DNA of 34,168 bases, taken from a virus. Below the pieces are notes generated by a model, which worked only from the letters and a program-made list of their open reading frames with translations, ran no database searches and was not told the DNA's origin. Location: the IMG/VR virus record IMGVR_UViG_3300034102_003761, positions 1-34,168 of that record; one strand, given 5' to 3'. The translations under genes and the position numbers were made by a program. Shown in pieces: positions 1,334-20,709 of the stretch (positions are counted from its first letter, which is position 1; each line of letters begins with the position of its first letter).

Positions 1334-1536
1334 ACTCCCTCCGCGACTACCTCACCGCCCGCCGGTTCGATCCCGACCACGCCCTCAATCTCCTCCAAGA
1401 CCACGGCATCATCTCCGACCTCTGCATTACCCCCGAAGATGTCGGCGACGCCGGAAAGGCCGTGGCCTGGTTGAGCCTCCGCGAATCCGAACTCAAATCC
1501 TCCTCTGTGCCCTCTGTGTCCTCTGTGGTCAAATGA
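1330..1536 (+). CDS. Small protein upstream of terL, C-terminus supplied by an interspersed repeat (68 aa)
   Basis: Start is in the ATGA overlap at 1330-1333 and the stop is in the ATGA overlap with terL at 1533-1536. The body (residues 1-54) is a helical domain beginning MNSLRDYLTARRFDPDHAL. The last residues (SSSVPSVSSVVK) are encoded by the CTCTGTGTC repeat at 1490-1534, which also occurs at 3957-4000 and 4779-4812. The native end of the protein was therefore probably replaced by the repeat. Its place just before terL is where a small terminase subunit often sits, but I see no small-terminase signature. Confidence 0.65.
   Translation: MNSLRDYLTARRFDPDHALNLLQDHGIISDLCITPEDVGDAGKAVAWLSLRESELKSSSVPSVSSVVK
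1490..1534 (+). repeat. Interspersed repeat copy 1 (9-base period, CTCTGTGTC)
   Basis: About 45 bases beginning AACTCAAATCCTCC, then three imperfect units of CTCTGTG(T/C)C ending CTGTGGTCAAAT. Copy 2 at 3957-4000 shares the same flank and core. It lies inside the 3' end of the 68-aa gene and reaches the terL start codon. Confidence 0.85.
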
Positions 1537-3236
1537 TCCCCCAAACCCCCAACCCCGTCATCCCCTCCATCGAAGTCGAAGGCCGCCGCGCCGATGGCTC
1601 CTTCGTTGTCCGCTACCGAGGCCAAAAGCTCGCCGCCACCGAGGCTCAACTTCTCGCCATCCACCGCGAGCGCGAGGAGCAAATCGCCCGCATGGTCGAA
1701 GACCCGTGGCGCTACGGCTGGCTGAACCCCGCCTGGCAGCGAGCCGATTCCGCCTACGACAGCCTCCGCGAGAAATTCCCCAAAGGCGTCACCGAACTCC
1801 TCATCCTCGGCGGCAACCGCTCCGGCAAGTCCCGCTACTTCGCCCGCCGCGCCATGCAGCACCTCGTCGAAAAGCCCGGCGCAAAAGTCTGGTGCCTCCA
1901 ATCCACCGAAGCCGCCAGCATCCAAAACCAACAGCCCTATTTGTGGGAGTATCTTCCGAAGGAATGGAAGCCCTCGGCCTCCGGCAAACTCAAAAAAGGG
2001 GCCGTCGCCAACATCACCTATTCGCAGAAAGGCGGCTTCACCGAAAACTCCTTCGTCCTGCCGAATGGCTCCCAATGCTGGTTCAAGTTCTACAGCATGG
2101 ATGTCACCTCCATAGAAGGGGCTGAGTTAAATTTTTGTTGGGCAGACGAGCTGGTAACCCCTGACTGGTTGGAAGCCCTTCGTTTTAGGCTACTTACACG
2201 CGACGGCGAACTCGGCATCGGCTTTACTCCCGTCGAGGGCTACACCACCACCGTCAAAGAATACCTCGATGGCGCGAAGACCTTGGAAGAATGCCCCGCC
2301 CCGCTCCTTCCCCGCTACCGCGACGGCCACCTCCTCGGCGTCGAGAGCGTCCCCCGCATCCAGCAATGCGCCCGCTCGAAGGCCCGTGTCGTTTATTTCC
2401 ACACCGCCGACAACCCCTACGGAAACCCCGAGGCCATGGAAACCGAACTCCGAGGCAGCAACCGCGAGCGAATCTTGATGCGAGCCTACGGCGTCCCCAC
2501 CAAAGCGCGGATGTCCATGTTCCCGAAATTCCGCGAGAATGTGCATGTCGTCCCTCACGACAAAATTCCCACAGCGGGAACCGTCTTCCATTTCGTCGAT
2601 CCCGGCGAAGGGAAAACTTGGGCCATGTTGTGGATTCGATTTTCCCCCGATGGCCGGTGCTGGATTTACCGCGAGTTTCCCGACCAGCTCGACTACATCG
2701 AAGGCGTCGGCTACCCCGGCCCGTGGGCCGAAGCCGATGGCAAGCTGCAAGACGGACGCCCCGGCCCCGCGCAAAAAGCCTGCGCCGGGTTTGGCTTCGA
2801 GGACTACAAGCGCCTCATCGAAGCCGCCGAGAAAGCCGACTCCGCCGAGCCCGCCGAGCGTTGGATGGATTCCCGCTACGGCAACACCCCCACCATGACG
2901 CACGAAGGCGTGCGAACTTTGATCGAGCAATGCAGCGAGCGCATCGGCCTCGACTTCCGCGCCACCAGCGGCCAAGCCATCGTCGAAGGCGTCACCCTCA
3001 TCAACGACTGGCTCGCCTACAACGACGAAGCCCCCGTCGATGCCCTCAACTCCCCCCGCCTCTACATCTCCGAGCGTTGCCAAAACCTCATCTACGCCCT
3101 CAAGACCTGGACCGGCAGCGACGGCAAACGCGGTGCAACAAAAGACTGGATTGATATTTGTCGCTATATTGCGCTCTCCGGCGTCGAATACGAAGACCCC
3201 GCCTCCCTCCGCACCCGAGGAGGCGGGTGTTATTGA
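1533..3236 (+). CDS. terL: Terminase large subunit (567 aa)
   Basis: ATP-driven motor and nuclease that cuts concatemeric DNA and pumps it through the portal into the prohead. The Walker A loop is GGNRSGKS (residues 93-100). The Walker B strand ends in acidic residues within ELNFCWADE (198-206). The C-terminal RNase H-like nuclease domain opens with FHFVDPG (aspartate 356), and further acidic residues lie in WMDSRYG (about 443) and near KDWIDICRY. Length is in the normal 450-700 range. The start overlaps the previous stop (ATGA), and it is followed after three bases by the methyltransferase GTG. No small subunit is recognisable nearby. The stretch coding for Walker B (about 2107-2210) has visibly lower third-position G+C than the rest of the gene. 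Confidence 0.95.
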   Translation: MIPQTPNPVIPSIEVEGRRADGSFVVRYRGQKLAATEAQLLAIHREREEQIARMVEDPWRYGWLNPAWQRADSAYDSLREKFPKGVTELLILGGNRSGKSRYFARRAMQHLVEKPGAKVWCLQSTEAASIQNQQPYLWEYLPKEWKPSASGKLKKGAVANITYSQKGGFTENSFVLPNGSQCWFKFYSMDVTSIEGAELNFCWADELVTPDWLEALRFRLLTRDGELGIGFTPVEGYTTTVKEYLDGAKTLEECPAPLLPRYRDGHLLGVESVPRIQQCARSKARVVYFHTADNPYGNPEAMETELRGSNRERILMRAYGVPTKARMSMFPKFRENVHVVPHDKIPTAGTVFHFVDPGEGKTWAMLWIRFSPDGRCWIYREFPDQLDYIEGVGYPGPWAEADGKLQDGRPGPAQKACAGFGFEDYKRLIEAAEKADSAEPAERWMDSRYGNTPTMTHEGVRTLIEQCSERIGLDFRATSGQAIVEGVTLINDWLAYNDEAPVDALNSPRLYISERCQNLIYALKTWTGSDGKRGATKDWIDICRYIALSGVEYEDPASLRTRGGGCY

Positions 3237-3239
3237 TCT

Positions 3240-4025
3240 GTGAATGAGCTGGCACTTTTCGCAGGCGCTGGTGGAGGCATACTCGGAGGGAAACTCCTCG
3301 GCTGGCGAACCGTCTGCGCCGTCGAATGGGACGCCTACGCACGGGATGTTTTGGTCGCCCGGCAAAACGACGGATGCCTCGACCCGTTCCCGATCTGGGA
3401 TGATGTTCAGACCTTTGACGGACACCCATGGCAAGGCCGTATTGATGTCGTGTCTGGAGGCTTCCCTTGTCAGGACATCAGCGCCGCAGGCAAAGGAGCC
3501 GGAATCGAAGGTCAGCGAAGTGGAATGTGGAAACACATGGCACGAATTATCGGTGAAGTTCGACCCCGTTTCGTCTTCGTGGAAAACTCACCAATGCTTG
3601 TGGGAAGAGGTCTTGCCGTGGTCCTCGGTGATCTTGCCCAAATGGGGTTTGATGCGCGATGGGGAGTTGTGGGAGCGCACCACTGCGGCGCTCCCCACCG
3701 CCGCGACAGAATCTGGATTGTTGCCCACTCCAACAGCAACGGACTACAAGGGGGGGCGATCTCCAGAGGGGGCCGAAAAAGCTGGGAGAGGCCCAACAAA
3801 CGGACTTCGGGATTTTTGTCGCCTAGTGCTTGGGTGGAAGCGGCCAAAACCGGCGGCTTTGAAGTCACTCATGGGATGGCCGATTGGATGGACAGAATCC
3901 GCTGCATTGGCAACGGACAAGTTCCAGCAGTGGCTGCGCTCGCATGGGAAATCCTAAACTCAAATCCTCCCTCCGTGTCCTCTGTGTCCTCTGTGGTCAA
4001 TCCCTCCCTTGACTCCCTCCCGTAA
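3240..4025 (+). CDS. C5 cytosine DNA methyltransferase (261 aa, GTG start)
   Basis: Transfers a methyl group from S-adenosylmethionine to carbon 5 of cytosine, probably protecting phage DNA from host restriction. Motif I is LFAGAGG (residues 6-12), motif IV is GGFPCQDIS with catalytic Cys77, motif VI is ENS (115-117), motif VIII is HRRDR (153-157) and motif IX/X is GNGQVP (224-229). Only about 60 residues separate VIII from IX, so the target-recognition domain is unusually small; the enzyme is compact (typical 300-400). The last 21 or so residues (SVSSVSSVV region) are encoded by repeat copy 2. A 237-aa ORF in the +1 frame runs through most of the gene. GTG at 3240 follows a GAGGAGG run about 17 bases upstream. 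No cognate nuclease is visible, so it looks like an orphan enzyme. Confidence 0.92.
   Translation: MNELALFAGAGGGILGGKLLGWRTVCAVEWDAYARDVLVARQNDGCLDPFPIWDDVQTFDGHPWQGRIDVVSGGFPCQDISAAGKGAGIEGQRSGMWKHMARIIGEVRPRFVFVENSPMLVGRGLAVVLGDLAQMGFDARWGVVGAHHCGAPHRRDRIWIVAHSNSNGLQGGAISRGGRKSWERPNKRTSGFLSPSAWVEAAKTGGFEVTHGMADWMDRIRCIGNGQVPAVAALAWEILNSNPPSVSSVSSVVNPSLDSLP
3244..3957 (+). CDS. Overlapping ORF inside the methyltransferase gene, +1 frame (237 aa)
   Basis: ATG at 3244 opens a 714-base uninterrupted frame, shifted +1 relative to the methyltransferase and almost wholly contained in it. The product begins MSWHFSQALVEAYSEGNSS and ends with GWPIGWT and KFQQWLRSHGKS, with LPTPTATDYKG in between. 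I recall phage proteins of this pattern (SQAL-EAYSEG, WPTPTA-D, GWPIGWT, KFxxWL) annotated beside or across Dcm genes, which would argue for real translation. I cannot check that here. It has no methyltransferase motifs. The two starts are four bases apart and could share one ribosome-binding site. An alternative is a chance frame kept open by composition. Confidence 0.45.
   Translation: MSWHFSQALVEAYSEGNSSAGEPSAPSNGTPTHGMFWSPGKTTDASTRSRSGMMFRPLTDTHGKAVLMSCLEASLVRTSAPQAKEPESKVSEVECGNTWHELSVKFDPVSSSWKTHQCLWEEVLPWSSVILPKWGLMRDGELWERTTAALPTAATESGLLPTPTATDYKGGRSPEGAEKAGRGPTNGLRDFCRLVLGWKRPKPAALKSLMGWPIGWTESAALATDKFQQWLRSHGKS
3957..4000 (+). repeat. Interspersed repeat copy 2 (CTCTGTGTC type)
   Basis: Begins AACTCAAATCCTCC like copy 1, then (CTCCGTGTC)(CTCTGTGTC)(CTCTGTGGTC)AAT. 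It supplies the 3' end of the methyltransferase reading frame and starts at the stop codon of the overlapping ORF (TAA 3955-3957). Confidence 0.85.
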
Positions 4026-4028
4026 AAT
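4009..4028 (+). promoter_or_regulatory. TTGAC / C-rich / TAAAAT element before the HTH gene
   Basis: TTGACT at 4009-4014 is followed by CCCTCCCG and TAAAAT at 4023-4028, ten bases before the ATG at 4039. A near copy (TTGACA, CCCCTCCC, GATAAT) lies at 10558-10577, twelve bases before another ATG. The 8-base gap is too short for an ordinary sigma70 promoter, so the role is open. Confidence 0.3.
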
Positions 4029-4038
4029 CTCCCTATCC

Positions 4039-4191
4039 ATGAAACTACTCCGCCGCCGCGATGTCATGGCCCGTCTGGGCGTTTCCGCAAAGCAAATCAC
4101 CAAACTCATCGACTCCGGCATTCTCCGCCCGATTCGCCGACAAGGAGCCCGCGCCTGGTATCGCGCCGCCGACCTCGAAAAACTCGCATGA
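4039..4191 (+). CDS. MerR/AlpA-type helix-turn-helix protein (50 aa)
   Basis: I take the ATG at 4039 rather than the in-frame upstream start at 4009, because homology-like sequence begins at MKLLRRRDVMARLGVS. The first residues contain the helix-turn-helix (RRDVMARLGVSAKQITKLIDSG), followed by the wing (ILRPIRRQGARAWYR) and a closing helix (AADLEKLA). This is the layout of excisionase/AlpA-like and DNA-binding HTH_17 proteins. It could be a recombination directionality factor or a transcription regulator. It is distant from the integrase (about 26 kb in this linear view, closer if the genome is circular). The stop overlaps the next ATG (4188-4191). Confidence 0.8.
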   Translation: MKLLRRRDVMARLGVSAKQITKLIDSGILRPIRRQGARAWYRAADLEKLA

Positions 4192-4770: not shown

Positions 4771-4778
4771 AACTTCCC

Positions 4779-4812
4779 CCTCTCCGTGCTCTCTGTGTCC
4801 TCTGTGGTCAAA
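4779..4812 (+). repeat. Interspersed repeat copy 3 (CTCTGTGTC type)
   Basis: CCTCTCCGTG, CTCTCTGTGTC and CTCTGTGGTCAAAT in the intergenic spacer. It shares the 3' core of copies 1 and 2 but lacks their AACTCAAATCC flank. Confidence 0.8.
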
Positions 4813-19524: not shown

Positions 19525-20709
19525 ATGGCAACTCTCACCCCAGGCTACACTTTTACATCCGGCGAGGTCGTGACCCCGGCCAAGCTCAACAGCGCGGCGT
19601 CTCCGACACTCGTTCCCGCGACCATCACAAACGCCGACATTTCGCCGACTGCGGCAATAGTAGGAAGCAAACTCGCCGACGCATCCGTAACCACAGCCAA
19701 AATCGCCGATGCATCTGTAGCCACAGCCAAACTTGCCGACGCATCCGTAACCACAGCCAAACTCGCCGACGCATCCGTAACCACAGCCAAAATCGCCGAT
19801 GCATCTGTAGCCACAGCCAAACTTGCCGACGCATCCGTAACCACAGCCAAACTCGCCGACGCATCCGTAACCACAGCCAAAATCGCCGATGGCTCGATCA
19901 CGGCTTCCAAGCTGGCCGGGAATGTGGACCAGCTTGCTACAGCCTGGGTTTTATTTCGCGGCGACATTGCCGATTCTGCTGTGCTCGGAGCCATCTTTAC
20001 CCGCCTCACGGATACCAAAATCCAAGTCACCCGCTCGACTGGCCATGGCCTAGCCAATGGCAACTGGATTACATTCCATGCGCTGACGGGCTTCTACGCT
20101 TTCTTAAACGGAACATGGGAAGTGCAGAACGCTACCGCGACGACTTTTGAGTTTAATTTAGCGGGAGCCACGACCCCTTCCGCAGCGGTCACGATTACAA
20201 CCGCCAACCCCGCCGTCATCACTTGGACGGGCCATGCTTTGGCAGTTGGGCAAACGGTCACATTTTCGACCACAGGGACGCTGCCTACGGGAATCACGGC
20301 TGGCACGACCTACTTTGTCAGGTCGGCTACCGCTGGGACTACTTTCACGATTTCTTTAACCAGCGGGGGAACAGCTATTGCCACCACCGCTGCTGGCACG
20401 GGCACACACACCGCCACGCTCACCGGCGTGATGACTTCGCAGATTTTCAGACCCGTAGCCATCAATCGCAAATATAACATCAGCAAAGTTGGCCGCCTTG
20501 ATCTCGGCAAATACCGAGTCTTTTTTGAGACAAAGCCGCTGACCGTCGATTACATCTCCTTAGGATCTGCCGCTGACGCAAGTGGCGACGCTGTAGGACT
20601 CGTTGGGGCTACGGCGCAGACCATCGACTACGCCGATATCGTCACAACAAATTCGGCAGGAACAAACGCCAACTACAACGCGGTGCGCTTAGTCGTGTTC
20701 GGAGGCTAA
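19525..20709 (+). CDS. Tail fibre with decapeptide repeats (394 aa)
   Basis: Two bases after the nozzle stop. The N-terminal part (MATLTPGYTFTSGEVVTPAKLN) is the common fibre opening with the TPxKLN motif. Residues 50-129 are eight decapeptides of the form (L/I)ADAS-V-(T/A)-T-A-K, typical of the shaft of many phage fibres. A module resembling those in the nozzle follows (VTRSTGHGLANGNWITFHA...NGTWEV...TTFEFNL), then a threonine/alanine-rich beta domain and a C-terminal head ending RLVVFGG. It is probably a receptor-contact fibre attached to the nozzle. Confidence 0.8.
   Translation: MATLTPGYTFTSGEVVTPAKLNSAASPTLVPATITNADISPTAAIVGSKLADASVTTAKIADASVATAKLADASVTTAKLADASVTTAKIADASVATAKLADASVTTAKLADASVTTAKIADGSITASKLAGNVDQLATAWVLFRGDIADSAVLGAIFTRLTDTKIQVTRSTGHGLANGNWITFHALTGFYAFLNGTWEVQNATATTFEFNLAGATTPSAAVTITTANPAVITWTGHALAVGQTVTFSTTGTLPTGITAGTTYFVRSATAGTTFTISLTSGGTAIATTAAGTGTHTATLTGVMTSQIFRPVAINRKYNISKVGRLDLGKYRVFFETKPLTVDYISLGSAADASGDAVGLVGATAQTIDYADIVTTNSAGTNANYNAVRLVVFGG
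19672..19911 (+). repeat. 30-base tandem repeat with exact 90-base higher-order unit
   Basis: Eight 30-base units from 19672. Units 1-3 (19672-19761) are repeated exactly as units 4-6 (19762-19851). Unit 7 equals unit 1, and unit 8 starts like unit 2 before diverging. Encodes the fibre-shaft decapeptides. Confidence 0.95.

Follow-up and report, generated by a model that had tools for sequence, protein, structure and literature searches.

A 34,168-nt viral sequence (IMG/VR record IMGVR_UViG_3300034102_003761; the whole stretch is here called the window) contains a cytosine methyltransferase gene whose DNA also encodes a second protein, in the +1 frame, across nearly its entire length. The dual coding is conserved among relatives, both frames are under selection, the motifs of C5 methyltransferases are distributed over the two products, and the dominant frame alternates along the gene. 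Judging from sequence comparisons, the locus probably encodes a phage two-subunit C5 DNA methyltransferase from one stretch of DNA, with one product (alpha) as the catalytic half and the other (beta) as the recognition half. It is a case of real, conserved dual coding, and it varies the known design of C5 methyltransferases built from two polypeptides.

Two open frames downstream of the terminase gene

Both frames follow the gene for the large subunit of terminase (1533-3236; phrog_2); the first opens with GTG at 3240 and the second, at +1, with ATG at 3244.

3240..4025, + strand: alpha, a C5 cytosine methyltransferase of 261 aa with a GTG start (PF00145, E=7e-33; phrog_363, E=4e-61)
3244..3957, + strand: beta, a +1-frame protein of 237 aa covering nearly all of alpha's length (phrog_1008, E=4e-15; conservation; purifying selection)
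3240..3246, + strand: tandem starts GTGAATG, with the alpha GTG at 3240, the beta ATG at 3244, and between them a TGA in the beta frame

An earlier reading of this DNA, made from its letters alone (the sequence-only reading), had claimed two long frames here, and both are open as described, from the GTG at 3240 to a stop at 4025 (261 aa) and from the ATG at 3244 to a stop at 3957 (237 aa). Its remark that third-position G+C is lowered in the methyltransferase frame also holds, at 0.58 compared with 0.70 to 0.81 in the large neighboring genes. In the window sequence alone, a +1 frame would stay open with a probability of about 0.18 for this protein written in phage codon usage, and of 0.04 when the gene's own synonymous codons are permuted. 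Because an open +1 frame in one sequence is weak evidence, the decision must come from conservation.

Several other features were recorded in the window. A small open reading frame just 3' of alpha (4009-4191) has profile matches to an excisionase (phrog_66) and a terminase small subunit (phrog_57). A 35-nt direct repeat with the core TCCTCTGTGTCCTCTGTGGTCAA occurs 5' of the terminase gene (1498-1532), at the end of alpha (3966-4000), and further downstream (4777-4811); the copy at 3966 is coding for the alpha tail past motif X. Eight tandem repeats with a 30-nt spacing occupy positions 19608-19937, within an open reading frame at 19525-20709.

Conservation of the pair and selection in both frames

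Related loci were fetched with the methyltransferase alignment alone, so the +1 frame was not selected for. Beta was present at the same offset in all 80 loci of the window's subfamily (the best 80 of >570 relatives). It was likewise present in 80 of 80 loci of a second, more distant methyltransferase subfamily (again the best 80 of >570 relatives), for which the query consisted of six proteins from loci found through beta and is therefore less neutral than the first. The conservation claim is made for the sampled best 80 per scan, that is, for 160 loci in two subfamilies. A tblastn search with the +1 protein matched 88 phage records, and all six that were inspected have beta in the +1 frame of a C5 methyltransferase frame. 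Among bacterial and archaeal genomes, too, nearly every +1 match lies at +1 over a methyltransferase frame. The beta start codon is ATG in 142 of 150 relatives and GTG in the other 8, and the tandem start [AGT]TGAATGA is common to 48 of 58.

Stops in the +1 frame of close homologs, which the sequence-only reading had named as a sign against a second gene, are not frequent. Among 58 non-redundant genes of the window's subfamily (<80% identical), 57 are stop-free in +1, against an expectation of 0.43 under a null of synonymous permutation. By the same permutation of these 58 genes, the +2 frame holds 14.5 stops, with 12.0 expected.

The synonymous-site constraint that the earlier reading had proposed to look for in +1 was found with an OLGenie-style count, our own simplified version of the approach of PMC7531306. 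The dNN/dNS ratio was 0.29 in +1, compared with 1.18 in +2 and 1.04 in the +1 frame of Dcm-type control genes; the interval for the first value (0.28-0.305) is too narrow, because bootstrapping was over non-independent pairs, although the contrast is still large. Pairs that include only the window gave 0.29 in +1 as well. Fourfold-degenerate third bases point the same way: at 60-70% amino acid identity, they differ at 0.354 of sites in alpha and at 0.565 in its neighbors on the same contigs; these neighbors are mechanically called open reading frames and perhaps spurious in some cases. The corresponding value in the Dcm controls was 0.742. Some alpha residues use a single codon throughout, namely, G136 (GGG, 58/58), A214 (GCC, 53/53), D218 (GAC, 55/55), and N2 (AAT, 54/54), and these locked codons face the conserved beta residues G135, P213, T217, and M1. 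Beta thus shows the purifying selection in the alternate frame by which same-strand overlapping genes are recognized. A similarity test of +1 against independently permuted genes was set aside, since the +2 frame also came out above that null, via shared ancestry.

Rates by region show that the two frames take turns. Alpha is dominant over motifs I-VIII, and no constraint on beta was detected over alpha motif IV. From motif VIII to motif X the order is reversed, with ratios of about 0.81 for alpha and 0.30 for beta (beta-based alignment), and over 3738..3869 dSN is 0.086 versus a dNS of 0.469. The N-terminal extension of beta is constrained in the window's subfamily (dNN/dNS 0.28-0.43). For the second subfamily, +1 constraint is absent from the first 60 columns (1.21) and present in the later body (0.24-0.45), so the extension is a trait of the window's subfamily.

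These results bear on whether the open +1 frame could have arisen from codon usage and the conservation of alpha, with no product made from it. Openness is not improbable in the window sequence alone (P 0.04-0.18), but the stop counts, the dNN/dNS contrast, and the codon locking all argue against such an origin, as does the fact that beta is most strongly constrained where alpha is least conserved. We give this reading a negligible probability; chance openness and shadow conservation are ruled out by the synonymous permutation, the OLGenie-style counts, and the two kinds of control genes.

Distribution of methyltransferase motifs over alpha and beta

The elements assigned to the two proteins are as follows.

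3252..3278, + strand: alpha motif I, ALFAGAGGG (sequence; invariant columns)
3456..3482, + strand: alpha motif IV with the catalytic Cys, GGFPCQDIS (sequence; invariant columns)
3582..3590, + strand: alpha motif VI, ENS (sequence; invariant columns)
3687..3725, + strand: alpha motif VIII, GAPHRRDRIWIVA (sequence; invariant columns)
3738..3869, + strand: alpha stretch between VIII and X, read as a linker, and on the same DNA the putative beta recognition region (rate ratios)
3909..3926, + strand: alpha motif X, GNGQVP (alignment)
3529..3717, + strand: beta conserved core, residues 96-158, with W/S-rich strands and LPKWGLMRDG (near-invariant columns; beta ratio 0.45)
3724..3756, + strand: beta PTPxAxD module, PTPTATDYKGG, single copy in the window (conserved in relatives)
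3850..3894, + strand: beta motif IX-like element, PAALKSLMGWPIGWT (in-frame in L217 and L239; alignment to M.HhaI 271-307; ratio 0.14)

Aligned with its relatives, alpha has motifs I-VIII and X in one protein, including PCQ in motif IV, EN in VI, and RxR in VIII, and belongs to the C5 methyltransferases (PF00145). Motif IX was not found in the window's alpha, and its match to M.HhaI is restricted to motifs I-VIII. An ordinary single-chain C5 methyltransferase has its target recognition domain (TRD) and motif IX in one chain; alpha does not fit this description, being without IX and near neutral from VIII to X. The region of about 60 residues that the sequence-only reading had taken for a short TRD in this frame instead looks like a near-neutral linker. 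Since alpha is near neutral there and beta is constrained, the alpha segment most plausibly serves as a linker, and the recognition region probably lies in beta.

The C terminus of beta reads NPxWVEWLMGWPIGWT in most relatives. In two natural variants (L217 and L239), the corresponding element lies in the methyltransferase frame, ahead of motif X, and phmmer aligns it to approximately residues 271-307 of M.HhaI (motifs IX and X); the motif IX alignment is short, with a weak score, and collinear with a strong N-terminal match. In addition, phrog_1008, the family of beta, matches the in-frame C terminus of L239 (E=6e-29). On the strength of these in-frame variants and the M.HhaI alignment, MGWPIGWT in beta looks like motif IX. 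Two other variants are split differently: at L133:2492-3001 and L137:2492-3001, alpha ends after motif VIII, and IX and X are both in +1. By inspection, genes 6 and 5 of Mycobacterium phage JangDynasty (L004) also have IX and X in +1. Five loci with IX in the alpha frame and no X there (L053, L131, L054, L083, and L165) resemble single indels or sequencing errors and were excluded.

Another possibility is that ribosomes move into +1 once motif VIII has been translated in frame 0, so that the functional product is an alpha-beta fusion and the separate beta start is secondary. In L133 and L137, where alpha stops just past VIII and +1 holds IX and X, such a shift would give a complete enzyme. However, in the window and in most relatives X lies in alpha's frame, and the fusion would be without it. 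Moreover, the beta ATG is conserved (142/150), often with a well-spaced Shine-Dalgarno sequence, and beta is constrained upstream of the junction as well. We therefore consider a frameshift fusion very improbable and favor two separately started subunits.

The phrases that the earlier reading had associated with phage proteins do correspond to blocks conserved in a family of phage proteins (phrog_1008, phrog_35493, and phrog_26627), which beta and its relatives match. The label of phrog_1008, DNA methyltransferase, is silent on the lack of motifs I-VIII, the position in the +1 frame of a methyltransferase gene, and the role as a partner subunit. No relative of beta was found in Pfam, NCBIfam, or the PDB (the last by profile search). 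AlphaFold gave low confidence for isolated beta, both for the whole protein and for the core alone, and Foldseek with the whole-beta model returned no match.

Modules of the form [LFW]PTPxAxD precede motif IX in 1-4 copies per protein. Among 173 distinct beta proteins, 95, 50, 24, and 4 have one, two, three, and four modules, respectively (two to four in 78/173). The spacing is most often 29-31 aa, and the length of the segment tracks the number of modules (r=0.85); example relatives for this segment are L137:2505-3716, L002:2501-3394, and L228:2755-4068. The modules recall tandem target-recognizing domains, which we regard as a lead rather than a demonstration.

It is also conceivable that beta is a real overprinted protein that is only housed in this gene and has a job independent of the methyltransferase (e.g., anti-restriction or regulatory). 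The N-terminal extension is constrained (0.28-0.43) without containing any methyltransferase motif, neither structure nor family match assigns beta, and the two-subunit model gives its first ~95 residues no role. On the other side, beta hardly ever turned up away from a methyltransferase frame, it carries the motif IX that alpha is missing, and some variants have this element in the methyltransferase frame, others in +1 together with motif X. An independent job thus appears unlikely, and a partner subunit is the reading we prefer.

Comparison with known enzymes and a proposed two-subunit model

The closest precedent is M.EcoHK31I, in which the beta gene is reportedly, from work in 1995, also read in another frame overlapping alpha. 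As described in PMC3404938, this enzyme (YGGCCR; Lee, Kam and Shaw 1995) has motifs I-VIII and X in its large subunit and IX in its small subunit, with a TRD predicted in the large one. Going by this published description, the window pair is alike in that alpha has I-VIII and X without IX and beta has IX. Unlike M.EcoHK31I, the window's beta is 237 aa long, has its start 4 nt behind that of alpha, extends over nearly the entire gene, and has a constrained N-terminal extension, in a phage gene adjoining the terminase; and whereas the TRD of M.EcoHK31I was predicted in the large subunit, the rates would put the window's recognition region in beta. Complete overlap, the constrained beta extension, and evidence pointing to recognition in beta are thus what appears to set this arrangement apart.

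In M.AquI (CYCGRG), motifs I-VIII are on one chain and IX-X on the other (PMC3404938). The window likewise has catalytic I-VIII and IX on separate chains, but its motif X is in alpha rather than in the small subunit; L133 and L137 are divided as in M.AquI, with the difference that their frames overlap. When circular permutants have the C-terminal helix on the large domain, a split between VIII and the TRD gives polypeptides approximating the two domains (PMC5944983). By analogy, the window pair matches this topology, with alpha as the presumptive large domain and beta as the small one.

Two further phage systems invite comparison. Multispecific C5 methyltransferases of Bacillus phages (SPR, SPbeta, phi3T, and H2) have tandem target-recognizing domains between conserved blocks (PMC8936443; see also PMC12707154). 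The 1-4 PTPxAxD modules of beta relatives may resemble such tandem units; unlike these single chains, the window pair is split and has one candidate module, and it does not class as multispecific. The ShiLan domain is an HNH endonuclease hidden within a phage gene for a methylase and is a mobile homing-endonuclease insertion (PMC11855218). In both cases a phage methylase gene holds another protein in a different frame, but the window has no insertion, and the beta overlap extends across the gene and occurs almost universally in the family. Beta has no HNH or endonuclease family match in Pfam or NCBIfam and is not of the ShiLan type.

With IX in beta and the VIII-X stretch constrained there, alpha resembles a large catalytic domain and beta a small recognition domain. 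Alpha would use motifs I-VIII for AdoMet binding and catalysis, followed by a tolerant linker and by motif X, which may fold back on the large domain. Beta would supply the small domain, with its conserved strands, the PTPxAxD module for target recognition, and motif IX. Starting at neighboring codons, both subunits would probably be made at similar levels and join in a single enzyme; it would methylate the phage DNA site-specifically, most likely as an escape from host restriction. We infer the binding of alpha to beta, the specificity conferred by beta, and the anti-restriction purpose. Where a Shine-Dalgarno sequence is seen in relatives, it is mostly 4-5 nt 5' of alpha and so 8-9 nt 5' of beta, and this spacing together with the shared tandem start suggests joint initiation from one ribosome-binding site. 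In the window, alpha starts 3 nt past the terminase stop and the nearest Shine-Dalgarno sequence is 16 nt away, so coupled reinitiation may operate.

The sequence-only reading had guessed that the two frames form a dual-coding pair, a methyltransferase with a partner. As far as the conserved pair goes, this guess is supported by motifs, natural variants, and evolutionary rates; the reading had named neither the partner's role (motif IX and target recognition) nor the precedent of M.EcoHK31I. More tentatively, and with somewhat less than even confidence, the locus may represent a large phage C5 methyltransferase family in which complete dual coding splits the two physical domains; beta would be an exchangeable specificity subunit, composed in many phages of 1-4 tandem PTPxAxD recognition modules, and multispecific modification would be encoded wholly within the catalytic gene, in its other frame.

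It is unusual for two enzyme halves that probably interact to be dual-coded on the same strand at near gene length, and this pair is conserved across many phages and prophages. The second frame goes unnoticed because many such genes carry the annotation of one "DNA methyltransferase" or of a hypothetical product. Should beta be the specificity subunit, alpha expressed by itself would yield false negatives, both for activity and in assigning the site. Relatives with IX and X in differing frames offer a natural series on the partition of domains by overlapping frames. The two-part design of such enzymes has been known since the 1990s; the pair is a phage version of it that is widespread and as a rule goes without annotation.
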